Program-made: the position numbers and the translations under genes
Notes under the pieces: generated by a model
Told to the model about the DNA's origin: nothing
What the model saw: only the letters and a program-made list of their open reading frames with translations
Databases searched by the model: none
Virus record (IMG/VR): IMGVR_UViG_3300042868_004831
Span: 1 to 49,144 of that record
Strand: one strand, 5' to 3'
Source of the DNA: a virus
DNA length: 49,144 nt
Shown: positions 510-29,791 of the stretch, piece after piece
Numbering within the stretch: the stretch's first letter is position 1
Layout: every line of letters starts with the position of its first letter

Positions 510-681
510 CCTTGTTTGCAGAGTACGAATATGTCGGGCGAGAAGGGAGGGTTCTGGCCTTTCAAAGCTCACCTCTCGGTGGCGACTCCACTTTATCACA
601 ACGCTACATCCCGTAGTTGAAAGAGTATGAAAGACCTACGGGACATAGCGCGGTCCCCAGTGCGTTTACATGCATGGGGGA
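481..681 (-). ncRNA. Candidate structured non-coding RNA downstream of tRNA-Asn
   Basis: Between the tRNA 3' end and the terminator lie about 200 nt with no convincing ORF and several hairpins when read on the minus strand. Hairpin 1 pairs 655-659 with 675-679, extended by 661-663 with 672-674 around one bulge. Hairpin 2 is a continuous 15-bp stem, 602-616 with 636-650, closed by a 19-nt loop; two of its pairs are G-U on the minus strand but C-A mismatches on the plus strand, so the functional RNA is probably the minus one. Then comes CACC-GAGA-GGTG, a GNRA-capped stem around 565-580, and finally the terminator. The stretch could be only a long tRNA trailer, or a discrete RNA released when the tRNA is processed. 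I do not recognise its family. Confidence 0.6.
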
Positions 682-753
682 CTCCTACTGCTGGGATCGA
701 ACCAGCGACCATTCGGTTAACAGCCGAAGGCTCTACCGCTGAGCTAAGTAGGA
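682..753 (-). tRNA. tRNA-Asn (anticodon GTT)
   Basis: The minus strand folds into a full 72-nt cloverleaf: acceptor TCCTACT/AGTAGGA (747-753 with 683-689), D-arm stem GCTC/GAGC, anticodon stem TTCGG/CCGAA with loop CTGTTAA (anticodon GTT), and T-arm GCTGG/CCAGC with loop TTCGATC. The discriminator base is G, as expected for tRNA-Asn. CCA is not encoded, so the host nucleotidyltransferase would have to add it. A sigma70-like promoter lies 11 bp upstream and a terminator about 170 nt downstream, so this is an independent transcription unit. Confidence 0.95.
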
Positions 754-763
754 ACATACCGTA

Positions 764-3955: not shown

Positions 3956-4443
3956 AGAACTTAATCCGCTACTACATAGCACTGATTGGTTTCAGTGCTC
4001 GCCTAATGTTCATGAAAGTATTCATGCCATCTAAACACAAACAGACAGTGCTTGCACTCAAAGATATTGAAGATGCATTCGACGCAGCAATGCAAAGACA
4101 ACGGGACACAGAGTTTCACGACATCTCATTCCCATCAGAAGTATATGCACTCTTCACTGAGGGTGGAGGCATCACGGATTGGGGTGAACACAGAGAACAC
4201 AATGAAGGCACGTTCGTTGTTCATCAATCAGATGATGATGAAACATACGTGCTGTTCTTTGATAACCTTGATGATGCTATGGAGATTGCAGACTCATACA
4301 AAGAAGAGACACAAGACGAGTGCACAATACGAAGGACTAAGGTCCAGTGCCTTAAAGATGATCAGAACGTACGGTTCTATCACATGAACGGCAACGTCTA
4401 TGATGTAAGCCGAAACAACTTTCTCAAGCTTGTAAAAGACTGA
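3952..4443 (+). CDS. Hypothetical protein with N-terminal hydrophobic segment (163 aa)
   Basis: Unrecognised. Residues 5-25 (IRYYIALIGFSARLMFMKVF) form a hydrophobic, weakly basic segment that could anchor the protein in the membrane. The rest is soluble and acidic, with a run of Asp around QSDDDETYVLFFDNLDDA. It ends a run of coupled genes; a terminator begins 7 bases after its stop. Confidence 0.7.
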   Translation: MKNLIRYYIALIGFSARLMFMKVFMPSKHKQTVLALKDIEDAFDAAMQRQRDTEFHDISFPSEVYALFTEGGGITDWGEHREHNEGTFVVHQSDDDETYVLFFDNLDDAMEIADSYKEETQDECTIRRTKVQCLKDDQNVRFYHMNGNVYDVSRNNFLKLVKD

Positions 4444-4449
4444 GTAAGG

Positions 4450-4482
4450 GGAGGGGTTAAATTTTATACCCCTCCAATTTTT
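4450..4482 (+). terminator. Rho-independent terminator
   Basis: GGAGGGGT (4450-4457) pairs perfectly with ACCCCTCC (4468-4475) around a 10-nt loop and is followed by AATTTTT. A second G-rich/C-rich hairpin (about 4491-4515) of similar sequence follows without a T-tract, as if the element had been duplicated. It ends the first rightward transcript. Confidence 0.75.
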
Positions 4483-4520
4483 ACTAGGGGGGAGGGGTCA
4501 AATTCTACCCCCCTCATATA

Positions 4521-4549
4521 TTGAATAACAATCATACTAACAATATGAT
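4521..4549 (+). promoter_or_regulatory. Sigma70-type promoter with a very short leader
   Basis: TTGAAT (4521-4526) and TATGAT (4544-4549) are separated by exactly 17 bp, right after the terminator. The predicted start, near 4556, is only about seven bases before the ATG at 4563, so the mRNA would be almost leaderless. It would drive the second block of small genes. Confidence 0.65.
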
Positions 4550-4562
4550 TTAGGACAACACA

Positions 4563-4796
4563 ATGACAAAGACACAAGCCCTTGAGGCACTTAAGGTTTA
4601 CAGCGAGTGGACATATGACACAACCATGGAGTTGTGGTCCAAGTGTACAAAGGACAAGTACATTGACATCATCATGGAAGGTTTAAACAAACTTGATGAT
4701 TCAGTACTTATCCAAATTGGTGAAGATGCTAAGCGTCGCATGGAGAATCCTGTCGGCATGTTAGTTAATCAATTGAGGGAGATGCAAAATGCTTGA
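4563..4796 (+). CDS. Hypothetical protein (77 aa), first gene after an internal promoter
   Basis: Unrecognised helical protein. The start lies about seven bases from the predicted transcription start, in the context AACACAATG. If that promoter is right, the AGGA upstream would not be in the mRNA and initiation would be leaderless-like. It overlaps the next gene by 8 bases. Confidence 0.7.
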   Translation: MTKTQALEALKVYSEWTYDTTMELWSKCTKDKYIDIIMEGLNKLDDSVLIQIGEDAKRRMENPVGMLVNQLREMQNA

Positions 4797-5103
4797 AATA
4801 GGACAACGTGTTCGTAATGTACGCCGCCCCGATGTTATCGGGGTGGTTGTATCTTTGGATGCACCAAATAATAAGTGGGCTACAAGACCACAGGATCACC
4901 GTGTGCTAGTCAGATACCCACGAGTGACCAAGTTATCCAACGGGACTTGGAAGGGAGGCGTGTTGGACGAATTACATGCAGACATTCTCCCTACAGGAGA
5001 GAAGATTCACGAGGCGTTTTCCAAGTACAAACGCAGCGGTGATGAAGCTGGCAACGCTGATAGAAAAATTGCACATCAAAGAACAAGGAGGCGCTCAAAG
5101 TGA
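4789..5103 (+). CDS. Hypothetical basic protein with SH3-like N-terminus (104 aa)
   Basis: Residues 1-70 look like a small beta-barrel: IGQRVRNVRRPDVIGVVVSL resembles the KOW/SH3-like fold often seen in phage accessory proteins. The C-terminus is strongly basic (HQRTRRRSK), so nucleic-acid binding is plausible but inferred. GAGGGAG provides the ribosome site within the previous gene. Its TGA overlaps the GTG of the next small gene. Confidence 0.65.
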   Translation: MLEIGQRVRNVRRPDVIGVVVSLDAPNNKWATRPQDHRVLVRYPRVTKLSNGTWKGGVLDELHADILPTGEKIHEAFSKYKRSGDEAGNADRKIAHQRTRRRSK

Positions 5104-5210
5104 TTATCTTTTGCATGTGCATACTTTTAGCATCAATCATTTTTTTAATTGCATGGTTCTTTCATGCAATCGAAGTCGCACAGAAAGAAATAGACAACAA
5201 AGATGAATAA
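5100..5210 (+). CDS. Very small membrane protein (36 aa), GTG start
   Basis: A 36-codon frame starts with GTG at 5100, with a near-perfect AAGGAGG ribosome site about 9 bases upstream. The start overlaps the stop of the previous gene (GTGA), and the end overlaps the start of the next by 8 bases. Residues 2-22 form one transmembrane helix (IIFCMCILLASIIFLIAWFF), followed by a charged tail ending KEIDNKDE. Such proteins can modulate host membrane functions or lysis; here the role is unknown. Confidence 0.6.
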   Translation: MIIFCMCILLASIIFLIAWFFHAIEVAQKEIDNKDE

Positions 5211-5595
5211 ACAAATCATTAGTGCTCATGAGTTGGCACGTAACGTAATTAAAGCCTACGAGATAGCTGACGCTCTCATCACGGGCGTTGAGTTCCATAA
5301 CTCAGAGAATGGTAGGTCAAAGCATCGATCGACGATCAATGGCGTACTTGAAGTCAGATTACACATGCATTATGAACGCATGGCTTCTGCTGTGTACACA
5401 ATCTACATTCAGATACATGACAACAAGTGGACACTGACAACACATGGTTATCTTGATGAGGTCAATGTCGAGTATTCAAGTACTAATACTGATCTGACAT
5501 ATAACTATCTTGATCTTAAAGAATGGGTCAATGACTTTGTTGCTACTGTATATCAACTCAAGGTTGCAGAAGTACACGGCATCGTAGCCGACTAA
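5203..5595 (+). CDS. Hypothetical protein (130 aa)
   Basis: Unrecognised soluble protein, probably alpha-beta, with a beta-rich centre (EVRLHMHYERMASAVYTIYI) and a C-terminal helix. The start overlaps the end of the small membrane protein gene. The first copy of the 28-nt repeated element begins seven bases after its stop. Confidence 0.7.
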   Translation: MNKQIISAHELARNVIKAYEIADALITGVEFHNSENGRSKHRSTINGVLEVRLHMHYERMASAVYTIYIQIHDNKWTLTTHGYLDEVNVEYSSTNTDLTYNYLDLKEWVNDFVATVYQLKVAEVHGIVAD

Positions 5596-5601
5596 TCAAA
5601 C

Positions 5602-5629
5602 TGAGGGATGCGTCTCAGTAACAACGCAT
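5602..5629 (+). repeat. 28-nt intercistronic element, copy 1 (possible pseudoknot)
   Basis: TGAG (5602-5605) can pair with CTCA (5613-5616), and ATGCGT (5608-5613) can pair with ACGCAT (5624-5629). Because CTCA lies inside the second hairpin, the pairings interlock as an H-type pseudoknot. The first base of CTCA is shared, so the outer stem may be shorter by one pair. Near-identical copies occur at 6477 and 7020, each just before a start codon. Confidence 0.65.
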
Positions 5630-5642
5630 GAAAGAGAACACA

Positions 5643-5972
5643 ATGACAGATCTTACACATTACAGGACTATCATCCTGCGATTCGCGTATTTACACATTC
5701 ATCCCGGTGGTGGTCTTGCCGCGATGATTATGCTTAAGCCCGGCTTTGAAGCCCGGCTTGATCACATAGCACAAGCTAATCTGTGTGAGTTGCTTACTTT
5801 TGCAAGTGGTCATGTACCACATGACACACGCAATGCACAGGGATTCAATGACTGGCTTGGCGAGGAGCCAAACATGTTTGAGAAAGAGTCATTCGATAAG
5901 TGGATGTCGGCAATCACGCCAATGCCACGACCTACACCTGCAGGATGGGAGGAGGTAGATACAAGTGCCTAG
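5643..5972 (+). CDS. Hypothetical protein (109 aa) downstream of element copy 1
   Basis: Unrecognised. The second in-frame ATG (5643) is chosen because it has the AGAGAACACA context seen at other starts and sits 13 bases after the repeated element; the ATG at 5628 lies inside that element. The protein is soluble, with MIMLKPGFEARLDHIAQANL in the centre and a Trp/Pro-rich end. A GGGAGGAGG near its 3' end serves the next gene. Confidence 0.65.
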   Translation: MTDLTHYRTIILRFAYLHIHPGGGLAAMIMLKPGFEARLDHIAQANLCELLTFASGHVPHDTRNAQGFNDWLGEEPNMFEKESFDKWMSAITPMPRPTPAGWEEVDTSA

Positions 5973-6213
5973 ATACACTTATCACAATCAGATGCATGAC
6001 TATCAGGGCCGAGCAATCGGCCCTGTTGGTGTCTATAAGAACGCATTGACTGCACGAGCAGTTGCTATGGTTCATGTCTATATGCAACCAGAGGTTATGC
6101 AAATCAGAATTTCACGTTGTCTTGAACATACATACGAATTTAAACCATACATGGTGGTTTATATGAACATCGTGACTAATAAAGCAATGACCAGTAGAAG
6201 GAACATATTTTAA
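5965..6213 (+). CDS. Hypothetical protein (82 aa), GTG start
   Basis: Unrecognised small basic protein, rich in Tyr, Met and His. The GTG start overlaps the previous gene by 8 bases and follows a strong GGAGG site. The next gene begins immediately after its TAA. Confidence 0.65.
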   Translation: MPRYTYHNQMHDYQGRAIGPVGVYKNALTARAVAMVHVYMQPEVMQIRISRCLEHTYEFKPYMVVYMNIVTNKAMTSRRNIF

Positions 6214-6468
6214 ATGAGATTTAAATACGAAGTACTTTATGGAAGCTTAGTTATTGAAGCGCTTCTCAAAGAGAAATTGATTACAAAGGATCATTACGAT
6301 CACATGTGGGATAGGTTTAATGAGCATAGTAATGAGTTAAATTACACATTAATTGACTTAGCTGATGTCTTAATTAATCTTGAGCAAGTTGATTGCGAAA
6401 TGATTGTTAATTACATGACAGCCAACCATAACTTAATCGAGTTTTATACAACTAAACTCGCTATCTAA
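6214..6468 (+). CDS. Hypothetical helical protein (84 aa)
   Basis: Unrecognised, mainly helical and acidic, without motifs. It starts directly after the previous stop and has little ribosome site of its own, so translational coupling is likely. Its coding sequence is noticeably AT-rich. Copy 2 of the 28-nt element follows 8 bases after its stop. Confidence 0.65.
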   Translation: MRFKYEVLYGSLVIEALLKEKLITKDHYDHMWDRFNEHSNELNYTLIDLADVLINLEQVDCEMIVNYMTANHNLIEFYTTKLAI

Positions 6469-6476
6469 TGTTTGTG

Positions 6477-6504
6477 TGAGGGGTGCGTCTCACTAACAAC
6501 GCAT
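6477..6504 (+). repeat. 28-nt intercistronic element, copy 2
   Basis: This copy differs from copy 1 at only two positions. TGAG/CTCA and the TGCGT/ACGCA stem are both kept, and the flanking pair changes from A-T to G-T, which preserves pairing. It ends 16 bases before the ATG at 6521. Confidence 0.65.
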
Positions 6505-6520
6505 AGAAAAGAAACACATC

Positions 6521-7012
6521 ATGTCTATCGAATTGTACACAAAGTATTTCCGCGAAACTCTTCTTGGTATTCCTGCTAAAGTAGCAGACGGCACACTGTA
6601 TTCGTACGGTGGCTATCACACCACATCACATACAGATACCGTTGAACTCAACGGGCATTACATATCAATGGAGTACAAGCTGCGTATGGACGTAGCTAAT
6701 GGTGAAGAGAAGACTCTTCATCCTATTCCTCTTGTTCAAATTGAACTGACTATGACATTGCGTCCTGACAAGGATAGCCGTGAAACATCTTCAATCATGA
6801 GTAAAGTAATCAAGGTTCAGTTGAACTCTGAGACTCTTGAAGAGCAGATTGATGAAGCGATCCAGACACTGGAACGTGTCATCATTGATGTCAAGCTGCC
6901 AACCATAGCTTTTGACTTCTGGAAGTATGTGTCTACTGCAATGCCAGACTTTGAGAAGCAAGTCAGTAAAGCGGTTGTGACTAATCATAATCGTCTGTCT
7001 TACAAGGACTAG
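6521..7012 (+). CDS. Hypothetical protein (163 aa) downstream of element copy 2
   Basis: Unrecognised. The first 110 residues look beta-rich with alternating hydrophobic residues (VELNGHYISMEYKLRMDV, LVQIELTMTLRP); the rest is helical. The start has only a weak GAAAAGAAAC site, which fits possible control by the repeated element upstream. Confidence 0.7.
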   Translation: MSIELYTKYFRETLLGIPAKVADGTLYSYGGYHTTSHTDTVELNGHYISMEYKLRMDVANGEEKTLHPIPLVQIELTMTLRPDKDSRETSSIMSKVIKVQLNSETLEEQIDEAIQTLERVIIDVKLPTIAFDFWKYVSTAMPDFEKQVSKAVVTNHNRLSYKD

Positions 7013-7019
7013 TTAGATG

Positions 7020-7047
7020 TGAGGGGTGCGACTCACTAACAACGCAC
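7020..7047 (+). repeat. 28-nt intercistronic element, copy 3
   Basis: This copy matches copy 2 except at two positions: the T of TGCGT is A (one base pair lost from the inner stem, leaving TGCG/CGCA), and the last base is C. TGAG/CTCA is intact. It lies 23 bases before the ATG at 7071. Confidence 0.6.
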
Positions 7048-7070
7048 ACTACACAATGAAAGACAACACA

Positions 7071-7316
7071 ATGGAAAAAGTTATTTGCTTGGTAAGCGTA
7101 GAGATGTTCAATGCACCGGGAATGCTCCGGTGGGCACGTCATTTCTATCGCATGACTAACTGCTCGAAGAAAGACAAGAAGTATTTCTTAGGTGTCATGC
7201 AAGCATGGGTAAAAGATAAGTCAACTGCTAAATACTGTCTTGAATGTCCTGATGATGTCATTGAATGGGATGACACAGCACAAACAGCAACAATAACAAT
7301 AAAGGTAACAAAATGA
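7071..7316 (+). CDS. Hypothetical protein (81 aa) downstream of element copy 3
   Basis: Unrecognised alpha-beta protein. Of three in-frame ATGs (7026, 7056, 7071), the first lies inside the repeated element; 7071 has the recurrent AACACAATG context and begins a natural beta-strand (KVICLVSVEMF). The end overlaps the next gene (ATGA). Confidence 0.65.
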   Translation: MEKVICLVSVEMFNAPGMLRWARHFYRMTNCSKKDKKYFLGVMQAWVKDKSTAKYCLECPDDVIEWDDTAQTATITIKVTK

Positions 7317-7630
7317 GTTTTGAATTTAGACCTATCAAGTACACATTCTGGAATACGTTTGGGGATAACACCCCGAATGATTTCGTTTGTATGTATATCG
7401 AACCGCATTACGGTGAGCCATGCCTTATCAAAATTAGGCGTAGGCTTGCAGCAGAAATTGGATGCACTAATTTGCGTAAAGGAGTTGAGTGGTACGTCAA
7501 CGATACTGACTGCTCCATGTGGAGTGAAAGACATGCTGTCATTGGTTATGCTGAAGTGTTAGCACCAGTGACAGTTGAGTCAAAGAAACAAGCTCTGGCG
7601 GTGTGTGAGTTTATGGAGTTAAAACAATAA
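7313..7630 (+). CDS. Hypothetical protein (105 aa)
   Basis: Unrecognised soluble protein, probably beta-rich in the first two thirds (VCMYIEPHYGEPCLIKIRRR), with a C-terminal helix. Start and stop overlap the neighbours (ATGA and TAATG), so it is co-translated with them. Confidence 0.7.
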   Translation: MSFEFRPIKYTFWNTFGDNTPNDFVCMYIEPHYGEPCLIKIRRRLAAEIGCTNLRKGVEWYVNDTDCSMWSERHAVIGYAEVLAPVTVESKKQALAVCEFMELKQ

Positions 7631-7878
7631 TGAAAGCTGTCGAAGGTGCTGGATTAATCATTGCAAGCCCAGTGTTAATGGGATGTGGGTGTTGTTTAGC
7701 ACCTGTTATTGCATTTATCGTAATGACAATATTCTCTACTGTTGCAATCGGTACAAGTGGATTAATAGGTGTACTAATTCACAACAAACAAACTGTACTA
7801 ATAACTCTTTCAATAGGGTTAATCATTACTGGTGGAATGATTTTATTTAAATATTTTGGAGAAAAACCTAATGAGTGA
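7630..7878 (+). CDS. Membrane protein with three hydrophobic segments (82 aa)
   Basis: Almost the whole chain is hydrophobic: an N-terminal segment with a Cys cluster (VLMGCGCCLAP, residues 16-26), a long helix at about 24-48 and another at about 54-74, then a charged tail. The size and topology are compatible with a holin-like or other small inner-membrane protein, but its position among early genes argues against lysis. Function unknown. Confidence 0.65.
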   Translation: MKAVEGAGLIIASPVLMGCGCCLAPVIAFIVMTIFSTVAIGTSGLIGVLIHNKQTVLITLSIGLIITGGMILFKYFGEKPNE

Positions 7879-8269
7879 CAACATAATGTTACAAGCGTGG
7901 GAAGAAATCATGGTAGATGCACAAGAAGCTGAAGAGTGCATTGTTTCCATGTATAGCATTGAACCGTACTATGGTGGCCCAGAGGAAGGAGGTTGGTGGG
8001 GCACCCTGTACATACTCAGAGAATATGTTCGATGCAGCAATCGTGAAGCAGCAGAAAGTCTACGAACAAAGCTGCAAGAAAGATGCTCGCAGTTAAATTA
8101 TGAAGCAAAAATAGCAGACGGAGAACACTGTTTACGTCAGATCGAACGTGCTGATGCACGAGGTTTAGACGTCGATGATTATGGTTATGATGGACCAAGT
8201 TCATACAATGTAATCATTGAGAAGTTTCCCGGCGAGAATCAAGTAACAGAAAGATCACACTACGAATAA
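7871..8269 (+). CDS. Hypothetical acidic protein (132 aa)
   Basis: Unrecognised. The ATG at 7871 is preferred because GGAG lies nine bases upstream, whereas the ATG at 7856 has no site. Residues 30-45 contain PYYGGPEEGGWWGTLYI, a Gly/Trp motif that looks like a substrate or partner surface; the remainder is helical and acidic. It overlaps the previous membrane protein gene by 8 bases and the next gene by one. Confidence 0.65.
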   Translation: MSDNIMLQAWEEIMVDAQEAEECIVSMYSIEPYYGGPEEGGWWGTLYILREYVRCSNREAAESLRTKLQERCSQLNYEAKIADGEHCLRQIERADARGLDVDDYGYDGPSSYNVIIEKFPGENQVTERSHYE

Positions 8270-18499: not shown

Positions 18500-21400
18500 T
18501 TATTCCTTGATACCACTACCTGCCGGATTAAATAAACCACGTACTCCAGACTCGCCAACAACGTCAACAGCAGATTGCGGACGAAGCGATTTAAGTTCTT
18601 CTTCAGCTTGCTTGTATCTTGCGCTACCGCCAACTCGTTGACGTAACCATTTCTGATAGTCATCATCAAATTGTGTTGCTCCAGAACCAAAGAAGTTCAT
18701 GATGAACGGAACAATGTTCTGCCTTGAAATGTCTTCTGAAGAAAGTTCTGTCCCCATACCAGAGTCAAAATTACGAGTAGACATATATTCCATATCTGAG
18801 AGCATGTCCTTTGTATTTACGTTGTTCAATGCGTCAATAGCAAAGCGCGTCATCTTATCTGGCATAGCCTTCTTGATGTTTTCCTCAATAGTTAAGTACC
18901 CCGGTATGTTTTTGGCTGCATCAGGTATTCCATATAGGCGAAGGTTAGGGTCAACCTTTAACTGCTTGACATATTCTTCATAGCCTAGATGGCTTTCAAA
19001 TGCTGGCTTCCCAGTAAAGTCTCGCCCAGTAACAGCCTCTTTGACAGTGGCTGCATACGGAGCAAGCATGTTTAATCCAAACTGCTTTACCCAGTACTCA
19101 ATGTTTTCAGGAATAGAGTGAGTACGCCATTTAGTAGACGCTCGTCCTGCCTGTCGTACTGCTCTACCTTGCGCACCCGGTAAGGTCTGCATGTACGTCG
19201 TACCAAGAATATCTACCTTCATCATTCCTGAGTCATCAAGGAATAATTCATCATAGATTTCTTCCCAGACTTGACCCTTAACCTCTGCTCCACCAGACGC
19301 AGCTGCCAATGCAGCAAGTATCTTAGGAGATCGAGTAATGATTTGTGTTGCTTTGGAAGACAGATATGCTGAAAGCCATTTCTTGGTTACATACCACTTA
19401 ACTTCTGAACTCCAGCCACCCTTATCCTGACCCAACCAAACCTTATCTTCAATGGTGGTGTTTGCAATCTTATCGAAGCCAAATGTTTCTGCTACGTTGT
19501 TGATTGCGTGTTTACCAAGGGTGTAAAAAGGACCTAAAGGACTAAGTACTAGCCTTGACTTGGCATACTTTGTTGAGATGACAGCCTTTGCCATAACACT
19601 TTGTAGTGCAGCAACCTTTGCATTTTCTGATGGAGAGCCACCATCATTGCCAGTCATGAAGTTAATTGCCTCAGCGTATTCACGGCGCAACTTCTCACGG
19701 TAGTTATCAGCCGTCATATTTAACTTTGCTGGAGGTATGACATTCTCCGTGGCCTGATACATTTGTTGGAATGCAGAGATGATTGCAAGGTCTTTATACA
19801 AAACGTTTGCTCTCTCAATTGCACTTTGCATAGGAACTATCTTTCGAGCAAACTCTCCAGATCCATAATAATCACTCATTCGCATATGCAACGGAATGTC
19901 TTCAGGTCTAATGTTTGGATTATCCTGTAGGGCTGCTTGATAAGTCCTGTAGTGATCTAAGTATTCAACTCCAAGCCCATAACTAGCAAGTCTGTCCATA
20001 GATAAATCAGGTACTTGCTCAATCAGTCTAGCCATCTGCAAGTGTACGTACTTGTCACCAAAAGATGTATCACCATGTTGCGCAAACGGATCTGACCCAG
20101 CCCTAAACACAACGTTCATATCCGGCGTGTTCGGAATCATCGCAGGTAAAGCACTCATGGCCCATGCCATCGATCCAACTTTCCTGTGTTTGATCATATA
20201 CATTAGGTCAGACATAGGATTTGCAATTAGCCATGCTTGGTTCGATGCAACACCAATATCTCTACCTAGTGCAAGAACACGAGTCATAGTGTTTAGTTCA
20301 TCAAGTAATTTTGCAGCTCCAGTTATTACGCCAGACGAATTCTCTTTGATTGCGTCATTTAATTTAGAACCCGCACGGACCTGAACAATGCCACTCTTGT
20401 CAGCATCAATCACAAGCTGAGTTGGAGACAGTGTTGGATCACTGAATACTTCTGTATTACCCTGTTGATCAATCATTGCCTCATCAATAACACCAACTGG
20501 ACCATTGGCCTTAGCCTCATCTAGGGTCTGGTTGGATACACCTAGAGAAGAGAACATATCTTGTGGGTCGAATCCACCAGAGAATACAGAGTGTCCAAAC
20601 TTCTCATCACGTCCGGGGACTGGACTCTGTTGATTTGCTGCGTGAGTAATACCTGCAAGGATTCCGTCATCACCCTTTTCCATATCCTCATGAACAAGTA
20701 TCTTAGCGATGTGGACTTCAGGTAACGCAACTGGAAGAGTGTCACCTATGTGAGGCTTCATTCCACCAAGCCGTCGCTCGATACCAACGACTTCATTCCC
20801 GCCAATACCTAAGTCAGTAATCTCAATAGTGTTATCTTTTAAAATCGTAATTTTTACATTACGTAACACGGCTGCATCGTAATCAGCCTGTCCAGTCATA
20901 GCCTTAAGGACCTCATCAAAATCCTTAAACTTCTGTTCTGGAGTTAACGTTTGCTTTACTGATGGATTATTCGGGTCATAACCCCATCGATGTGGGAGGG
21001 AAACAGTTACAACTGCGGATGTACCCGGCTTTCTCTTAGATAACCCATCGATGGTATTTAGTAAAGTCTGAGCAGATGCCTCTGGTATTTTCAATAAAGC
21101 AGCTCGGATGCCAGCAATCCCATACTTAAACCTAGACTCGTATTTAGTTTTTACGTTGTCCGTAAGTTCCTTCTCAGGGTTGTAGCATAGTGCCCCAGCC
21201 TTATTGAAGTTGGTGGACTTCTCAGGGTTTCGTGAAGAGCGATCAATACTAGAGTAAGCCGACCGTCCTTGCCCTTGTTTTAACGCAACCCATTTAAGGT
21301 CTCCGTTGCTATCTTTTTTCTGTGTAACAAACGCTATTTCGCCAGATGCCTTGTTAACTGCAATGTGATACGTAGACGGCACGGCTGAATTGGCGTCACG

Positions 21401-24400
21401 GCTGACTCCACTAGTGTCTGATCCAGATGCCCTGACGTCATGGCGTAGAACGTACCACGGAGTAGATTTCCTAAAGAGGTAGATTGAATCAACTAATTGA
21501 TACTCGCCTCTAGATTTCAGTGCTGTGGCTCGGTGGCTTATATCAACGCTCAATGCCTGAGCAAATGCAGATATTGCTGTGTACTCTTGTGAAAACGGAT
21601 TAGCAGCAGCCTCCAACACATCAGCCTCACTCATGGCTTTGCCTAATCTATTTTGAGACTCAGCATATGCACGTACAGCAAATGTAATGATTGCACGTTG
21701 GTTATGTGCTAACGGTATTGGGTCATCTCCATCAAAGCCTTCAACAACATCTTGCAGGTTTTGTGAGAATGCAGATGGTCCAGTATCCCCATCAGCGTCA
21801 CTAATGAAGTTAACTGAACCCTTAGCAAAGTCACGTGCAATAGTAAACGCACTATCCATAGACAACGCTACACCAGTTGGCATAGATTCATCAGTTGCTG
21901 ATTCTATAGCAGATAACGCATCTGAAATGAATGTGTCATCATAACCCTTGCGTTGCAACTGCTGACCAAACTCAATAACACTGCGTGACTTTACTAATGC
22001 TTCACCAATGTCGTTAAGTTCATCCGATGAATCAAAGTCTTCAGTCAAACGACGTGCAATCCTAGACAACGTGTAGGACGTTGGATCTCCGTCTCCTGTG
22101 CCCTCACCCTTATTTAAATAGATCGGAGCAGAAGAAAGAGTATTACCGCTCTTGTTACCAAAGAAACTAGAGATGTGAACGTTTGTTGTATCTCCTGATG
22201 TTTCACTTTTAGAAGATAAGACAATAGGTCTGTTGTCAGCAGGACGAATACCAAATAGTGATGTTCGTAGATTCTCCATACCTTGTCTAGCATTGTTAAT
22301 CTTCTTCCGTACTTCTTCCTGTGCTTTTTGATCATCGTGACCTATTGCTTGCTTAAGACCATTATTGTAAACAATAGAAATTGCGTCGGTAGTAGTGTCA
22401 GCTACAGCAAGAACATTTTCGGCAGAGTTTACTTTGCTAGTGGCAATAGCTTTAGCAATAGGACTGTCCGAATATGCTTTTCGGATTTCGTCTAATCGAT
22501 CTTGTGCTTCTTGAGCATCTTCTGGGCTACCGTTTTTAATAATAGAATTTAGGTCGCTGATTTCGTTACTACTAACTCCAAATGTTGTGCCAGCAACATC
22601 AGGCATTAATCCCGGAGCTGGACCCGACATAAACGCATAGCCTTTAAGAATGCGCTGTTGTCGTTGGTCAGCCATACCCATTAACACCTGTTGGGCCTCA
22701 GATACACGACCATAAGAACTGTACAAGATTCCTGCTACAGTTGGAGATGCAGACCCACTGCTTCCACTAACACGTACGTTTGGTTGCATTGCAACAACGT
22801 CACCATACGTTATGTATCGCTTCCTCTTACCGCCTTCAGTATCTGCTTCAACCACATATGCGTACTGAGGACGCTTATCCCTAATGGGTACTCCACCTAC
22901 TGAATTGACTGGCATTCCAGTGTCAGACACATCCATCTCAAACCAGTTCTTGTTTTTTCCGCCAGTTGCAACTGGCTTTATGCCCTTTGCGCGTAGTTTG
23001 TTGAACGTGTCACTTTTACTATCTACAAAAATTAATGATCGATGAACCTTGAATGGCATATCAATATGCTCAAATCCACCGAACTGTCCAAATATAGATG
23101 GGCCACGTTTAACATCAGAGAGGTCAGCTTCACCGCCAATATTATTCTGTGCTAACCCATCTGGTGTAGCCGTTAACGGTTGTAGAACATTCTGAGCGCG
23201 TGTGCTACGGTCCGTGAATCGCAATGTCCATCCAGACATCATAGGTGTTGCTATTGGATTACCAGCAGCATCTACATGGAAGAAGGACTTTCCTCCAAGT
23301 GTCCACCTGTGACTAGAGCCTGTCTCTGCGCCAACCCAGTCTGATTGAACCGTGTTACCACGTGTCATTACTCCAATGGCTTGATTCAATGCAATACCAA
23401 GCCTAGACATCGCACCAGATGCATAGTGGGCAATATTAGAGTCATCACTGTAAATCAGTGGATCCTGCATTGCCGTTGACATCAGGTAACTAACAACCAC
23501 TTCATTTATGGTTGGGTCTGTATAAAGAAAACTATTGGTATCTCCATGCATGTCTACCGTGTAGTGATACTCAAGCTCGGCGAGTTTCTTTCGTGCCTCG
23601 TCAACTTCATCATCTGTTCCTTCTGCTATTACCTTCTTGAGGTTTGCAACTTCCTTGTTGTAATCAGATAACTCTGTAGTCACGTTACGCAAAGCAGCAC
23701 TTAATGAGTTGTTTGTTTTGTCTCCAAACATTGCCAATGCATTCTTTGCAATACGGAGTTTGTCATGTAAAGGCATCGTGTGATACACGCCATGGAATAA
23801 CTCATGACCAACACTGAGTGCGTTACGACCAGCATTCTTATCCTTATTGATATGCAACATAAGGTTTACGATTGCTCGTTGCGAACCCGGTATCTCGATG
23901 ACTGGACCAGTCGTTAGGCTTCCATAACTCCCACGGATTAAACTTGCTTCCGAGAACTGGTTGACAGCAGCAGATGACATATTCACTTGTGCATTTGTCG
24001 TATAGAAATCATGTACCAACTGAGCCATACGATGCGTTGATAGCCATTTACCAAACTGGATACCGTAATCTTTGTTGACTTCACGGAACGCGTCTGCAAC
24101 TACAGAGTTTGCATCTTTACTGAACTTCTTTGTTCCTGTGTCAACGAGCAATGTGCCTGTATCTTGAACGTGATCGTAAACCTTCTGCATTGCCGACCGA
24201 ATACCGGGATCACTTTCTGCTTCCATTGCAGATCTGATTAACTCGGAATAAAACTTCTTTGCGTCAATACTGTTGCCAGTCTTTAACTCGTATTCCATAT
24301 GACGGACTGCATACCCATGGGCATGTACATCCCACATATCTGCATATGTGTTAGCCATGTCATCAACCATTTGATTGAGGCCGATGTTGCTAAATTCCTG

Positions 24401-27400
24401 ACCGCCAGTAAGCATGTCTTTGATAACAGCGACCATAGAGTCTCTGTTTAAACCACGCTGTTGTTTCAAGCCGACACGTGCATTACCTTGCTCATCAGTT
24501 GAATAGATAACACCCTTACCTTGAACTTCTCCATTAATGCCCTGTTCAACTACGCTTCTTGGAGGAGTTGCACCCATAAGTGCTTGCGCTCCGGGTAGTG
24601 GTAATGTCCACACTTGATCTGCAATAGAACGTTGATTAAAAGCCTTAAGCCAAGGAGCAGCATCAGACAGTATTTGACGGCTGACCGCTAAACGCTCTTG
24701 TGATACACGGCTACCATTACTAGCTTGCACTGCATTATCTGCAGTCATATCTACAAACTGACTAATGACATCCTGTGGCAATAACCGTACGCCACCTTGC
24801 CTTACAGATCCATCGCCTGATGGCAAACTTCCTGCTTCTTCAAGGAATCGTTTAGCTGCGAGGCTAACCTTTTCAGGTGACGTATTACGAGCAATGTACT
24901 CTTTGTTAATGGCAGCAGCAGTTTCAGCTGCACCAGCAATAGCATCCTTAGTAGCAGCTTTAGCCATGTGAGACACAAAGCCTTCGACCTCAGTACCTAC
25001 TTGTAATATGTAGTCAGCTGGATTCTTTTTGTATGCCTCATCAAGTCGCTCAAGAATATCTGTTTCGTTATCCTCAAGGTATTTACGTGCAGCTGGACTA
25101 GTATCTCCTAAACGAGTGAAAATGTCGTTGTACATTGACTGCGGTGTAATGTCTACATCTGTCGTAATGTTCTGAAGCGTTTGCTTCATACTATTATTGA
25201 GGCCTGTTAAATCATCAATGCCGTTATTTTTTAGAACACGAGCAATGTCAGAGATAGTTAATTTACTGTTAGGGAAACGTACGTCACTAAAGAATTTATT
25301 AAACGTCTCTGCGTCTAAATCTTGAGACGCGAGGTTGCTAATAATTTCCTTCATTGCCGCAGGGTCATTCTGAATCATGTCCATTGCATGTTTTAATTCA
25401 GTGATAGATGTATTTGGATCAGAAGACTTTGCAACAGTTACTTCAACAACCTTACCGCTTACCTTTGCAGCAAAAGCTTCAAGCTCAGAAGTTACCTTTT
25501 CTCTATATGCTTTAACGTCATATTTTTTTCTTACTCTAGTAAGCGGAGATACCTGTGATGCAACGTATCTGAAATCTTCAGCAAATTGCCGTTGACTTGT
25601 TGGCATAGTGCCAGTCTTTTCGGCATATTTTAACTGTGCCTCAACCTCAGCTTGTTGTTCTGGAGACATAAAGCTAACGGATGCCCAGAAGTCATTTGCT
25701 GTAACGCCAATGTTTTTTAACCGGGTACGTAACGTAGTGCCAACGTGCTGCATTTGCACTGCTCGTTGAACAACCGCAGCTTCCATTGCAGCTTTTTCAG
25801 TTGCTGGCAAATCCAACTTACTGACAATGTTGCGCACATGAGTTTCAAGGCGTCCACGTCGCCATCTATCAAGTGCTTCAGATGCAAGGGTATTAACTGT
25901 GTTTGCGTATACTTTACGACCAGCTTGAGTCATACCCTCAGACATGTGAGAAACAAAGTCATCAGTGTAATTGACTGCTACATCGCGATCTTTATTCCAG
26001 CTAATCATTGCATCTAAAACAGCATTCAACCTAGTAATCTCATTGATTTCTAAAGGTCGGTCTACATCAAATGTCAAGACGGCATGAACAAGATTGTCAC
26101 GGACTTCCGGTGTTGCATTAGCAAATGCTTCTCGGTAAACACGCCCAATAGTATTTGGGGTAACACTCAAATCACCAAGGGCATACTCAAGGTGATTTTG
26201 CGCTGATTCAATTGTAGTTGATTCAATAGCACGTTGATAAATCAAATCAGGTGCAGGATTAACGCTATCAACAGGCATTGGTGCAGCTGGAGTTGCATCC
26301 GCAGGTGTTGTATCTAAGGGTGCTGTTACAGGCTGACCGTTTTCGTCAAGCACTCCGGGTATGCCAAATCCAGAAGACCCAAAGTTGGTCATGTCTACAA
26401 ATTCAAAACGTTCTGCGTTAGGTTGAAATTGATGACCAGATACCTCATGTACAGGACGTAGTAAGTCAGGGTGAACAATTGCTGCTGTTTCATCTAAACG
26501 ATCTTGCAACGCAATGTGTACGCCATCTTTATCTATTCCTAAAACAACTGCACGTAATTGACCTTCCGGTATACGGGCTGGTCTAGATATAGCACCAAGA
26601 TCATCAGTAGAGCTATTGACAAGCACGACGTCACCAGCCGTAATCTTGCTACCACCAGTTTCAGTTCCGTCGTTATAACGGACATCCGATGGGTCCTCAA
26701 TTTGGCTCATGTTACGTAGGAACTTAGCAACGTCTTTTTCAAACTTCTTTTGACCGACTTCAAGATCTTCGTTATTTTGTAATCGCTTGTCTTGTTTACG
26801 TAAATGCTTTTCGTACATTTTTTCAAGGATATCTTGATCACGCGCATTAATATAGACACGGCGGGTAGAAGTTACATCATCACCAAGTTGAACGTCAATG
26901 AACTCACGTCTTTTGACGTCAGCAACTTGCGTTGTTAAATTGTCTGCATAAACTATTCCAGCAACACGTTCCATGCGTGTATCAATTGGAGTCATTAAAG
27001 TGTCTGTATTTCTTGCAGACCCCATAGATTCCTTACGGACTCTAATTACTCCACCTGTAGGTATTTGATATGAATAGAACTCATTAGTCTTGTTGATTAA
27101 ACGAGCAGGAATAACCTTTCCACCACCAACGGCAACTTGATGTGGGAATTGTACTCTGTCAACGGTTGAGAAATCGGTCGATGAATAAATAGCACCATTG
27201 TTGTCACCAATATCAGAGCCACCAAATTCCCTGTTAATTGCTTCTAGTTGAGAAATAATTTTTTCTTTACTAGATTCAGGCAAGGTCTCGTTAAGTTCTC
27301 GGCGACCAACTCTATACGTGCTGTCTTCAAGTCCGGGTCCGCCACTTAACGACTTTGTAACAACTGGGCCGTCAGCATCAAATCCACGTACGTGATAGTC

Positions 27401-29791
27401 ATATACCTTATTGTCTGAACCACGATGACTCCAACGAATATCGATGTTTTTGCGGTCGTTAAATGTAGGCAAGCCCTTGCGTAAATTATCTGGAGTTAAA
27501 TTATTGACGTCTGTAGTAATAGCCTGTGGCGTAAGTTGCCTGTTAGTTGGATAAGTCACATCGTCAGTAACCCCAATGCGACGCAAGCTATCATCGTACA
27601 CAATGCGCTTTAATCCATCTGGCGTTGTAACAATCATGCTCGTATGAGGCAATGGCCTACGTTGGTTATCAGCAGTTTTCTCTAGTTCTGTTTTTGTAAG
27701 AGGTTTTTTCTGTGACTCTTGCATTGCTAAACGAGATTTTAAAGCAGCAGTCCACTCACGTGTAACTGTAGAGAATCCTTGCAATGGGCCAGTAATTAAA
27801 TCGTGTACTGCTAAATCAGCATCCTGACGTCCAGCTATTGGCGCATAACCAAACTGACCAAGCGTTTCATTTTCTGGCTGCGGACCAAGGGCATCAGTTA
27901 TTGCATCGCCAGCACCACGAATTGCACGACCAACACTAAAGCGTTCTTTAGGTCCTTGCATTGGTGGAAGTTTTTGTGTGGGTGATTCTCTCTTGTACTT
28001 GCCAGCATCAAGCACACGACCAAGAATGACACGGTCTAATGACGGATTCATTCCTTGATCAATGCGCCTTGTTTCCGTCATGTCATTGATGTCTTGGAGT
28101 GTACGTATTTCCGGGCGATCTGGAAATTGTTCTTTACGGCTTTGAGATACATATGCTAAAGCTTGATCGTAAGATAACCCACTATTTCTAATTAAGTAGT
28201 CGATTAAGCGAGATTCTTTTTGTAGTTCTCTTCGTAACTCGTTTGATTTTTGTGAAACTGCTAATATAGCGCCAGTCCCAACCTCAGTTGTATCAAACAC
28301 GTTGTTAAACTTACCTAAGATACTGTCTTTGTGTGGTGAGCTAAATGCTATCTGTGCAACGCTGTCAATGACATCCGTAGCACTAGGCATCTCATAGCCT
28401 TTTTTAGTCTTCTCGTCATATGGTTGTGCCACAGCAAGACCTGCTTGTACACCCATTGGAATGGCGCTTTGCACTGCATTTGCAGCCATTGGCCGTAAAT
28501 ACATATCAGGTATTGGAGTTTCTTCGATACCTGCTTTAAAAATACGTGCTCGTGATAATGGTGTAATCTTTCCGCCATCACCAACAGCGCGAGCAGTTTC
28601 AAGTCCATCACGAATAGACTGACGTACACTACGTACGCCTTCTTTTATTTCACTAACAGATCCACCATTTACAATACGACCAGCCGTATTCAAAGATGTG
28701 CCAAGTGCAAGGCCAGCAATATTCAATAAGGTATTTGATACTGCTCCCATTTCTTGAGCTTGACCTGATTGACCCTGCGCCATCTCACGTAAAGCTTTAT
28801 TATTAATTGCTTCCTGTGATGCACCAACCGGATTACCAATAGCGTTATAAACAGGATTCTTCGTTACTACTTCTGCAACACCCGGAGCTAATCCAGTAAC
28901 AAACTCAGCAGCATTTGCAGCTGAAGGAGCAATACCTTTCAATGCGCCAAGTCGCCGAATTCCGGAAAACAAACCACCAGTTGCTAAGTCAACAGCAGCA
29001 GATGGAATACCCATTGCTAAAAGTTGTGCAGCCTGAAAGCCAACCGCCTCACTCTCATTTTCAATAGGCGCTTTAAAATATTCTTCCCCATATTGTTCTG
29101 GCGTTATTTTGGGCGCTGTCTCTAAAGCAAATGCTTGGTTTAGGTTGGGGTTAGTCGTTGCTCCAGACATACCTGTTCCAGAATAAGCCAACCCTTTAAG
29201 TAATGGTCCATTGGGATCCATTAACCCGTCTTTAACTGGGTTTAATACTGCGCCAAGCGAGCCACGCAAGTTTTGTAAACCCTTACCAGCACCAGAAACG
29301 TTGCTTGCTAAACTTGGGACAATAGTTTCAGGGACAAGCTTGACGTCATCATATGCAGTGTAAGCAGGTGTAGGGCCTTTCTTTAACTGACCACCAATAG
29401 CTTGAGATTTTGCTTGACGTTCAGAAATAACCTCATTAAGGTCACGTTGCCAGTTATAGTTGCCTTCTTTATCAATAAAGGACGTTCTGTTTAATACTGA
29501 CTCTTTACCTGTAGCTGGGTTTTTAAACTTAACAACATTTAAATCACTATCAGTAACAGGACGTCGTGATGCTTCTTTGATTGTGTCAGCATAGGCAGCT
29601 AGGCGTTTTTGATAAGCGTCATTAGTAAGCAAGCCGTTTTCACGAGCAGCGGAAAGAACAGCACGAGTATCTTTAGTAATAATAGATGCGTAGTCTGGAT
29701 TTGTCTTTGTTACCTTTTTAGTAGCAGTATCAAACCTAGACAACCATAACTGTAACTTCTTTTTTTCTGCAGCGGTTAACGGCTTTGCCAT
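18500..29791 (-). CDS. Giant polyvalent internal virion protein with metalloprotease motif (3763 aa)
   Basis: One uninterrupted 11.3-kb frame with a good AAGGGG site. Parts seen in order: helical N-terminus (1-100); Gly/Ala-rich hydrophobic stretches at about 245-310, 345-375 and 435-455 that could insert in membranes; several small beta-barrel-like segments (about 780-1110); a Pro/Ala linker (about 1155-1180); long helical regions; a zincin-like site GHELFHGVYH with His1996, Glu1997, His2000 and a possible third ligand Glu2097; and near the C-terminus (about 3150-3440) a helical domain like the large-polyvalent-protein domain LPD38 (RDIGVASNQAWLIANP). Such proteins of podoviruses are carried in the capsid and ejected with the DNA. 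No N4-type RNA polymerase motif was found. Confidence 0.8.
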   Translation of the reverse strand: MAKPLTAAEKKKLQLWLSRFDTATKKVTKTNPDYASIITKDTRAVLSAARENGLLTNDAYQKRLAAYADTIKEASRRPVTDSDLNVVKFKNPATGKESVLNRTSFIDKEGNYNWQRDLNEVISERQAKSQAIGGQLKKGPTPAYTAYDDVKLVPETIVPSLASNVSGAGKGLQNLRGSLGAVLNPVKDGLMDPNGPLLKGLAYSGTGMSGATTNPNLNQAFALETAPKITPEQYGEEYFKAPIENESEAVGFQAAQLLAMGIPSAAVDLATGGLFSGIRRLGALKGIAPSAANAAEFVTGLAPGVAEVVTKNPVYNAIGNPVGASQEAINNKALREMAQGQSGQAQEMGAVSNTLLNIAGLALGTSLNTAGRIVNGGSVSEIKEGVRSVRQSIRDGLETARAVGDGGKITPLSRARIFKAGIEETPIPDMYLRPMAANAVQSAIPMGVQAGLAVAQPYDEKTKKGYEMPSATDVIDSVAQIAFSSPHKDSILGKFNNVFDTTEVGTGAILAVSQKSNELRRELQKESRLIDYLIRNSGLSYDQALAYVSQSRKEQFPDRPEIRTLQDINDMTETRRIDQGMNPSLDRVILGRVLDAGKYKRESPTQKLPPMQGPKERFSVGRAIRGAGDAITDALGPQPENETLGQFGYAPIAGRQDADLAVHDLITGPLQGFSTVTREWTAALKSRLAMQESQKKPLTKTELEKTADNQRRPLPHTSMIVTTPDGLKRIVYDDSLRRIGVTDDVTYPTNRQLTPQAITTDVNNLTPDNLRKGLPTFNDRKNIDIRWSHRGSDNKVYDYHVRGFDADGPVVTKSLSGGPGLEDSTYRVGRRELNETLPESSKEKIISQLEAINREFGGSDIGDNNGAIYSSTDFSTVDRVQFPHQVAVGGGKVIPARLINKTNEFYSYQIPTGGVIRVRKESMGSARNTDTLMTPIDTRMERVAGIVYADNLTTQVADVKRREFIDVQLGDDVTSTRRVYINARDQDILEKMYEKHLRKQDKRLQNNEDLEVGQKKFEKDVAKFLRNMSQIEDPSDVRYNDGTETGGSKITAGDVVLVNSSTDDLGAISRPARIPEGQLRAVVLGIDKDGVHIALQDRLDETAAIVHPDLLRPVHEVSGHQFQPNAERFEFVDMTNFGSSGFGIPGVLDENGQPVTAPLDTTPADATPAAPMPVDSVNPAPDLIYQRAIESTTIESAQNHLEYALGDLSVTPNTIGRVYREAFANATPEVRDNLVHAVLTFDVDRPLEINEITRLNAVLDAMISWNKDRDVAVNYTDDFVSHMSEGMTQAGRKVYANTVNTLASEALDRWRRGRLETHVRNIVSKLDLPATEKAAMEAAVVQRAVQMQHVGTTLRTRLKNIGVTANDFWASVSFMSPEQQAEVEAQLKYAEKTGTMPTSQRQFAEDFRYVASQVSPLTRVRKKYDVKAYREKVTSELEAFAAKVSGKVVEVTVAKSSDPNTSITELKHAMDMIQNDPAAMKEIISNLASQDLDAETFNKFFSDVRFPNSKLTISDIARVLKNNGIDDLTGLNNSMKQTLQNITTDVDITPQSMYNDIFTRLGDTSPAARKYLEDNETDILERLDEAYKKNPADYILQVGTEVEGFVSHMAKAATKDAIAGAAETAAAINKEYIARNTSPEKVSLAAKRFLEEAGSLPSGDGSVRQGGVRLLPQDVISQFVDMTADNAVQASNGSRVSQERLAVSRQILSDAAPWLKAFNQRSIADQVWTLPLPGAQALMGATPPRSVVEQGINGEVQGKGVIYSTDEQGNARVGLKQQRGLNRDSMVAVIKDMLTGGQEFSNIGLNQMVDDMANTYADMWDVHAHGYAVRHMEYELKTGNSIDAKKFYSELIRSAMEAESDPGIRSAMQKVYDHVQDTGTLLVDTGTKKFSKDANSVVADAFREVNKDYGIQFGKWLSTHRMAQLVHDFYTTNAQVNMSSAAVNQFSEASLIRGSYGSLTTGPVIEIPGSQRAIVNLMLHINKDKNAGRNALSVGHELFHGVYHTMPLHDKLRIAKNALAMFGDKTNNSLSAALRNVTTELSDYNKEVANLKKVIAEGTDDEVDEARKKLAELEYHYTVDMHGDTNSFLYTDPTINEVVVSYLMSTAMQDPLIYSDDSNIAHYASGAMSRLGIALNQAIGVMTRGNTVQSDWVGAETGSSHRWTLGGKSFFHVDAAGNPIATPMMSGWTLRFTDRSTRAQNVLQPLTATPDGLAQNNIGGEADLSDVKRGPSIFGQFGGFEHIDMPFKVHRSLIFVDSKSDTFNKLRAKGIKPVATGGKNKNWFEMDVSDTGMPVNSVGGVPIRDKRPQYAYVVEADTEGGKRKRYITYGDVVAMQPNVRVSGSSGSASPTVAGILYSSYGRVSEAQQVLMGMADQRQQRILKGYAFMSGPAPGLMPDVAGTTFGVSSNEISDLNSIIKNGSPEDAQEAQDRLDEIRKAYSDSPIAKAIATSKVNSAENVLAVADTTTDAISIVYNNGLKQAIGHDDQKAQEEVRKKINNARQGMENLRTSLFGIRPADNRPIVLSSKSETSGDTTNVHISSFFGNKSGNTLSSAPIYLNKGEGTGDGDPTSYTLSRIARRLTEDFDSSDELNDIGEALVKSRSVIEFGQQLQRKGYDDTFISDALSAIESATDESMPTGVALSMDSAFTIARDFAKGSVNFISDADGDTGPSAFSQNLQDVVEGFDGDDPIPLAHNQRAIITFAVRAYAESQNRLGKAMSEADVLEAAANPFSQEYTAISAFAQALSVDISHRATALKSRGEYQLVDSIYLFRKSTPWYVLRHDVRASGSDTSGVSRDANSAVPSTYHIAVNKASGEIAFVTQKKDSNGDLKWVALKQGQGRSAYSSIDRSSRNPEKSTNFNKAGALCYNPEKELTDNVKTKYESRFKYGIAGIRAALLKIPEASAQTLLNTIDGLSKRKPGTSAVVTVSLPHRWGYDPNNPSVKQTLTPEQKFKDFDEVLKAMTGQADYDAAVLRNVKITILKDNTIEITDLGIGGNEVVGIERRLGGMKPHIGDTLPVALPEVHIAKILVHEDMEKGDDGILAGITHAANQQSPVPGRDEKFGHSVFSGGFDPQDMFSSLGVSNQTLDEAKANGPVGVIDEAMIDQQGNTEVFSDPTLSPTQLVIDADKSGIVQVRAGSKLNDAIKENSSGVITGAAKLLDELNTMTRVLALGRDIGVASNQAWLIANPMSDLMYMIKHRKVGSMAWAMSALPAMIPNTPDMNVVFRAGSDPFAQHGDTSFGDKYVHLQMARLIEQVPDLSMDRLASYGLGVEYLDHYRTYQAALQDNPNIRPEDIPLHMRMSDYYGSGEFARKIVPMQSAIERANVLYKDLAIISAFQQMYQATENVIPPAKLNMTADNYREKLRREYAEAINFMTGNDGGSPSENAKVAALQSVMAKAVISTKYAKSRLVLSPLGPFYTLGKHAINNVAETFGFDKIANTTIEDKVWLGQDKGGWSSEVKWYVTKKWLSAYLSSKATQIITRSPKILAALAAASGGAEVKGQVWEEIYDELFLDDSGMMKVDILGTTYMQTLPGAQGRAVRQAGRASTKWRTHSIPENIEYWVKQFGLNMLAPYAATVKEAVTGRDFTGKPAFESHLGYEEYVKQLKVDPNLRLYGIPDAAKNIPGYLTIEENIKKAMPDKMTRFAIDALNNVNTKDMLSDMEYMSTRNFDSGMGTELSSEDISRQNIVPFIMNFFGSGATQFDDDYQKWLRQRVGGSARYKQAEEELKSLRPQSAVDVVGESGVRGLFNPAGSGIKE

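Follow-up and report, generated by a model that had tools for sequence, protein, structure and literature searches.

A short element that occurs in three near-identical copies in the linear record of 49,144 bases analyzed here (the window, by which we mean this whole stretch of phage DNA) is almost certainly an H-type RNA pseudoknot, judging from the pairing and covariation described below, and its constant neighbor is the stop codon of the preceding gene. A sequence-only reading of the window had assigned the element to the start codons that follow, an assignment that is not borne out. We favor a role as a barrier at the 3' end of an mRNA, or of an mRNA segment, over that of a translational operator, a preference drawn from sequence to which we attach slightly less than even probability.

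Among the products encoded in the window are a DnaB-like helicase and, of the structural proteins, a P22-type portal and a major head protein. The last of these is only remotely similar to proteins of other phages (23%, in Paenibacillus and Streptomyces phages), and a megablast search with positions 4800-8000 against cultured phages gave no match. The three copies lie exactly where the sequence-only reading had placed them and its distances to the following starts are likewise correct, 13 nt (ATG 5643), 16 nt (ATG 6521) and 23 nt (ATG 7071); with up to three mismatches allowed, TGAGGGNTGCGNCTCANTAACAACGCA occurs 3 times in the window versus 0 times in 100 shuffles. Other details of that reading needed revision. 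The element had been described as 28 nt long with a 4-bp pairing of TGAG with CTCA; the pairing holds but the length does not, because the base 5' of TGAG pairs with the base 3' of CTCA, so that stem 1 (S1) comprises 5 bp and the element 29 nt (Table 1). The reported change from A-T to G-T at the stem end is real, with G-C at that pair in copy 3, whereas the inner T-A pair said to be lost from copy 3 is better described as a one-base junction, since T, A or C occupies this position opposite an A that is invariant in 81 copies; copy 3 therefore keeps 10 of 10 conserved pairs. In copy 1 a C-G replaces the G-C at the base of S1, a compensatory change, and the outer pair of stem 2 (S2) is A-T.

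Table 1. Positions of the pseudoknot copies, their flanking genes and other features of the window
Feature	Positions	Strand	Description
Pseudoknot copy 1	5601..5629	+	S1 CTGAG (5601-5605)/CTCAG (5614-5618); S2 ATGCG (5608-5612)/CGCAT (5625-5629)
Unpaired parts of copy 1	5613; 5619-5624	+	Loop 1 (L1) GG; junction T 5613; loop 3 (L3) TAACAA 5619-5624
Pseudoknot copy 2	6476..6504	+	S1 GTGAG/CTCAC; L1 GG; S2 GTGCG/CGCAT, outer pair G-T
Pseudoknot copy 3	7019..7047	+	S1 GTGAG/CTCAC; L1 GG; S2 GTGCG/CGCAC, outer pair G-C; junction A
Gene upstream of copy 1	5203..5595	+	130 aa; no PHROG or significant Pfam match; stop 5 nt before the element
Leader from copy 1 to start codon	5630..5642	+	GAAAGAGAACACA; weak Shine-Dalgarno (SD) sequence AAAGAG
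Gene downstream of copy 1	5643..5972	+	109 aa; longer reading possible from ATG 5628 inside the element
Gene upstream of copy 2	6214..6468	+	84 aa; stop 7 nt before the element
Gene between copies 2 and 3	6521..7012	+	163 aa; stop 6 nt before copy 3
Gene downstream of copy 3	7071..7316	+	81 aa; one of several unrelated families in this slot among relatives
tRNA-Asn (GTT) gene	679-754	-	Near the left end of the record
Two tandem hairpins	4448-4527		GGGGAGGGGT..ACCCCTCC, 77% alike; terminator-like; between genes ending at 4443 and starting at 4563
Open reading frame	18500-29791	-	3763 aa; structural half of the genome

Fold and covariation

In its general form the element is 29-30 nt long, with an S1 of 5 bp and free sequence, an L1 of GG, an S2 of 5 bp (RUGCG/CGCAY), a 1-nt junction and an A-rich L3 of 6-7 nt, and it can be recognized with the pattern N5-GG-RTGCG-N-N'5-N6..7-CGCAY. 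A search pattern covering only the 3' two thirds retrieved 39 viral-contig stretches, mostly from phages with a DnaB 71-100% identical to that of the window, and GTGAGGG, which lies outside the pattern, was nonetheless present in nearly all of them. The window family that emerges from the gathered loci (some 40 contigs) numbers 81 distinct copies, each matching GTGAGGGGTGCGTCTCACTAACAACGCAC at 25-29 of 29 positions as against 21 for the closest sequences outside it, and its longer records carry 2-3 copies each, close together. Between these phages the element diverges by 3.7-6.2%, as against 41-56% for the final 60 nt of the gene in front of it, and the upstream proteins fall to 23-34% identity; at the level of sequence divergence the element is demonstrably under strong purifying selection.

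All 10 pairs are kept in 81 of 81 window-family copies. Variation is confined to the unpaired positions 12, 18, 19 and 21 (counting from 0) and to pairs 0/17 and 7/28. The former pair, at the base of S1, is G-C in 79 copies and C-G in 2, with no mismatches, while the latter, the outer pair of S2, is G-C in 49, A-T in 16, G-T in 16 and never A-C (Fisher 2e-8, a value that ignores relatedness). The stems of homologues are constrained and do not vary freely, as the pairing proposed in the sequence-only reading would lead one to expect.

Stronger evidence for the fold comes from outside the family. A first scan blind to S1, using GGRTGCGNNNNNNYAACAACGCAY, returned ten new loci, 8 of which carry a different and fully complementary S1 (5/5). 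A second, using GGGRTGCGNCNNNNNNANAACGCAY, returned 109 stretches from partly redundant contigs, and outside the window family 60 of the 70 matches listed pair 5/5, against about 8 of 70 expected after shuffling of the S1' strands, it being understood that the pattern fixes the innermost S1 pair. Over 57 distinct sequences from the S1-blind pattern, 8 non-pairing ones included, pairing is kept in 97.2% of cells; the covariation score, 0.433, compares with 0.128 after shuffling and no more than 0.133 when the partners are slid. Two-sided changes occur at 4 of the 5 S1 pairs (94.4% paired); S2 is 100% paired, its outer pair being G-C, A-U or G-U, with C-G and U-A also occurring in the full scan. 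The four inner S2 pairs are invariant, but were fixed by all scans except two; neither of these, one of them a scan of the RCGAG S1 class with S2 left free, revealed an alternative S2. A full scan of the gathered loci yielded 157 element contexts, of which 69 lie outside the window family; 26 S1 pairs occur overall, and L3 has 6 or 7 nt (9 nt in one case). Control cores of the same geometry gave 0-1 matches versus these 157, a count selected on S1. A pattern one base longer caught a subfamily with a 7-nt L3 plus many chance matches. The H-type pseudoknot is strongly supported because many compensatory S1 sequences, more than 20 with an identical core outside the window family, occur in unrelated phages.

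That the knot acts as RNA is indicated by the acceptance of G-U pairs and by an orientation that follows that of the genes. The energies of the single stems are modest, -5.3 to -7.0 kcal/mol for S1 and -3.3 to -4.5 kcal/mol for S2. A DNA-level or evolutionary element with no function as RNA, for instance an operator bound by protein or a recombination boundary traveling with gene cassettes, would account for the exchange of downstream genes beside it, as at other phage boundary sequences; we nevertheless consider it very improbable, since neither DNA binding nor spread explains two interlocked pairings, over 20 compensatory S1 sequences and G-U pairs. Sequence is conserved in S2, in L1 and at the adenines of L3 but free in S1, and a free, P1-like S1 around a conserved L1, S2 and L3 is the usual look of a small aptamer. 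A ligand-binding riboswitch is still improbable: the genes behind the element share no function, no expression platform is seen and 2-3 copies stand before unrelated genes in one genome. The Rfam 15 covariance models gave no match to the element at the gathering threshold, only tRNA and hammerheads elsewhere in one contig, and no related family, riboswitches included, appeared even at E<=10. The hammerheads are two type II ribozymes (RF02276) at L208:7193-7256 and 7512-7575 (-), in a knot-bearing phage contig.

Several further matches were set aside. The element is all but missing from the bacterial genomes sampled, as a search of 794 Actinomycetota and Pseudomonadota genomes gave one match, rejected as its S1, GATGG/CGATG, does not pair along its length; 6 matches from a scan of genome contigs were judged to be chance, and one (L130, S1 TTGGT) lies deep within a long open reading frame and is probably chance as well. 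One window-family phage carries an extra knot on the reverse strand of its locus (L023 from 116; G030:C1:40022-40045) with S1 CCGAG/CTCGG and a 7-nt L3; a long hairpin immediately precedes this knot and a 109-aa gene follows it.

Placement relative to genes and possible roles

In the window family the element follows a stop codon by 5-8 nt in 80 of 81 copies and by 11 nt in one, at a spacing that is constant across 6 unrelated upstream families, and it precedes the usual start by 13-26 nt; in the window itself the distance from the stop is 5-7 nt, a tighter spacing than that to the next start. Outside the family 55% of elements sit 4-20 nt after the stop of an open reading frame, as compared with 4.4% of random positions, the distance usually being 5-18 nt, and the upstream genes include those for SSB-like and major head proteins, with a knot 5 nt after the latter in one contig (L184). 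What lies 3' of the element varies: it may be a T-run (L212), a tRNA or tRNA-like RNA, or a start codon. Repeats found before start codons may, as a general caution, belong to the preceding gene.

Six upstream and eleven downstream protein families flank the element in the window family, and because one upstream end occurs with different downstream genes, genes are exchanged at this site. Proteins of the 163-aa family diverge to about 23-30% identity between phages, while both flanking elements stay nearly identical. Element variants track neither the upstream nor the downstream gene significantly (Mantel r <=0.08).

The spacing to the stop invites comparison with recoding signals. The BWYV pseudoknot is laid out with a short S1, a 2-nt L1, a 1-nt junction and an A-rich last loop. 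The luteovirus-type knots of BWYV, PLRV and PEMV-1 (cited in PMC3835772) are similar to the element both in build and in distance from the A site; recoding pseudoknots typically lie at the tunnel entrance behind a spacer of 6-9 nt (PMC3835772), and this distance of about 6-9 nt to the A-site codon is matched by the element, which in 80 of 81 copies lies 5-8 nt from the stop. Unlike these knots, the element has an S2 of 5 bp and comes with neither a slippery site nor a conserved open frame past the stop. A signal for programmed stop-codon readthrough or frameshifting in the upstream gene, with its like spacing and geometry, was rejected on these grounds and is barely conceivable: no slippery heptamer is shared, no conserved frame runs through the knot, the upstream frame continues past the stop for variable lengths (0, 2, 3, 8 codons and more) and there is no common frame into the next gene. 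The knot might instead act on the ribosome as an insulator, abutting the mRNA entry tunnel when the stop is in the A site, so that sliding and re-initiation are blocked and neighboring genes uncoupled. Such a device would be in keeping with the 5-8 nt spacing, which does not change with the unrelated genes upstream, and with a compact build (5-bp/2-nt/5-bp/1-nt/6-nt) that resembles that of recoding pseudoknots. We think it unlikely, however, as it leaves unexplained the knots before tRNAs, behind hairpins or behind a promoter, and no stop codon or last codons are conserved.

The initiation signals downstream provide a different perspective. Predicted anti-SD duplexes are worth -5.8, -3.6 and -4.9 kcal/mol for the genes starting at 5643, 6521 and 7071, as against a median of -7.3 kcal/mol, and values down to -18, for other genes of the window, and genes behind window-family knots have uniformly weak SDs (-2.2 to -6.5 kcal/mol). 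These weaker SDs keep a translational role alive. In some relatives, moreover, the knot is found nearer the next start: in the CGCAG S1 class and a few singletons it lies 50-65 nt from the stop, with a GC-rich hairpin in front of it, and in the CGCAG class 11-32 nt upstream of SD and ATG. In the CTGTG S1 class TATAAATA, which resembles a T4 late promoter, lies just upstream of the knot, and a hairpin follows. We observed TATAAATA before the knot in L216, L217, L219, L226, L245, L247, L256 and L261, with a hairpin and T-run between knot and SD, and tblastn with the gene behind this class found no cultured phage.

An operator or 5'-UTR regulator, in which a phage or host protein would bind the knot and repress or license downstream initiation, in the manner of gp32 at the leader of T4 gene 32, would fit the 13-26 nt separation from usual starts and weak SDs of the window family, the placement of the CGCAG class and the sequence conservation of S2, L1 and L3 adenines expected of a binding site. 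Set against this are the relatives in which a tRNA, a tRNA-like RNA or nothing comes next, with the start 80-110 nt off and the stop 5-14 nt away. In addition, the genes behind the knot are unrelated and freely exchanged, no common RNA-binding protein was identified and other classes carry strong SDs, so that we regard an operator as doubtful.

The largest group outside the window family is informative in this regard. Here the gene before the knot is SSB-like, with weak PHROG matches to single-strand DNA binding proteins, and the distance from this gene to the knot is generally 5-14 nt, though 21-24 nt in a few cases; a tRNA-like RNA begins 3-5 nt after the knot, and a primase-like gene comes next. 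What comes after the SSB-side knot changes from phage to phage, from tRNA-Asn (L220) or tRNA-Thr (L218, 34 nt from the stop), both ordinary tRNAs recognized by eye from sequence, to the tRNA-like RNA or a small open reading frame (L252). The tRNA-like RNA lacks a D arm, with CTGG at the place of the D loop, and is made up of an acceptor stem, a stem closed by a pyrimidine-rich loop, and a T arm. It is well supported in that two-sided changes occur at 16 of its 18 predicted pairs, with covariation in the acceptor, middle and T arms, and ARAGORN did not call it. It was seen at L224:4900-5030 (-) and in L199, L204, L206, L209, L214, L246, L248, L258 and others, and the SD of the gene that follows it (e.g. 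AGGAGAG, L199) appears to be complementary to its pyrimidine-rich loop (e.g. CTCTCCTTT).

Where a knot ends 2-5 nt before a tRNA or tRNA-like RNA, cleavage by RNase P would leave it at the 3' end of the ssb mRNA, which is what a barrier to 3' exonucleases needs. In the barrier model that we favor the knot would be a mechanical roadblock marking the end of one mRNA segment, placed right behind the gene at a spacing that would let the terminating ribosome just reach it and not melt it. The polycistronic transcript would be cut downstream of the knot, with RNase P as the enzyme wherever a tRNA or tRNA-like RNA begins 3-5 nt beyond it and, in the window phage, another nuclease acting in the A-rich leader; the upstream message would then end in the knot, which would stop 3'-to-5' exonucleases. 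The knot may also insulate translation of the two genes, and in the window's phages the conserved gap is additionally a site of downstream-gene exchange. In the window family we found no tRNA or obvious nuclease site 3' of the element. An RNA processing site, another of the roles named in the sequence-only reading, would fit best in the tRNA contexts.

Position behind stops and before tRNAs is the sole observation from which we infer a barrier, and several points count against one. The location of the CGCAG class, nearer the start, suits a 5'-UTR role equally; the CTGTG-class knot, behind TATAAATA, may be a 5' leader; any gap element falls near a stop in compact genomes; and conservation of sequence in S2 and the GG exceeds what a plain roadblock needs. 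A still broader reading, which we advance as tentative, is that of a general punctuation of phage mRNA in which a minimal pseudoknot would cap the 3' end where an operon is cut and a tRNA or D-arm-less tRNA-like RNA would be the cutting signal. If true, phages of many groups would share a terminator-independent way of forming mRNA 3' ends that is portable between genes.

Related systems and cultivated phages

We found no earlier description of the element in the literature, and no single known system can be said with certainty to work like it. Type III toxin-antitoxin RNA antitoxins (ToxI) are short repeated H-type pseudoknots that occur in phage contexts; unlike these, copies of the element are not tandem, and no toxin gene was seen adjoining. 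The PeSL mobile regulatory cassettes of T4-type phages reportedly combine an early promoter with a stem-loop (Arbiol et al. 2010) and, like the element, are intergenic regulatory repeats with gene exchange alongside, but no promoter is evident in the 50-70 nt gaps of the window family.

In Cluster K mycobacteriophages the SAS, a 13-nt asymmetric sequence, lies within a few nt of the start, and the inverted repeats of the ESAS have little support as an RNA hairpin (PMC3203893). Like the element, both are short conserved repeats found at the starts of some genes only, within the non-structural half of phage genomes; the element, however, is a covariation-supported, stop-anchored pseudoknot that is present in many phage groups. 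An association with start codons, as in SAS/ESAS, holds throughout the window family and fails in relatives with a tRNA, tRNA-like RNA or non-coding DNA behind the knot.

Pseudoknots acting in cis in phage mRNA are known as a kind: in the gene 32 mRNA of T4, T2 and RB69 a knot serves gp32 autoregulation, present as one copy upstream of the phage's own SSB gene, 67 nt before the start, and followed by an A+U-rich stretch over the RBS (PMC3014915). The element shares with it the H-type fold in tailed-phage mRNA and, in some relatives, adjoins SSB genes. It differs in occurring as 1-3 copies per genome, mostly after stops and before unrelated genes or tRNAs, in its conserved GG-RUGCG core and in lying behind the SSB gene and not in front of it; the window copies themselves flank small uncharacterized genes. 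Judged by the libraries searched, the family and its placement are new, adding to phage biology an unlisted RNA family with covariation support that can be found in many phages with a simple pattern.

A comparable arrangement is found in cultivated Arthrobacter phages. In Amavida and Rings an H-type knot with an S1 and S2 of its own (ACAGAC/GTCTGT and TGAGCA/TGCTCA) stands behind an SSB-like gene and ends 2 nt before a tRNA, and none of 600 random windows scored as high. Molivia has the same S2 strands, and its S1, read by eye, appears to be CGTC/GACG. From the sequences we take the Arthrobacter knot as an analogue at the corresponding place, its homology to the element being unproven. With these cultivated phages, whether such knots end, protect or insulate messages in crowded operons becomes directly testable. 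The gaps concerned in these three phages (L272:5255-5457, L275:2756-2957 and L277:3254-3446) hold the pseudoknot and then tRNAs, one of which is annotated as tRNA-OTHER or with conflicting identity and is possibly the tRNA-like RNA.
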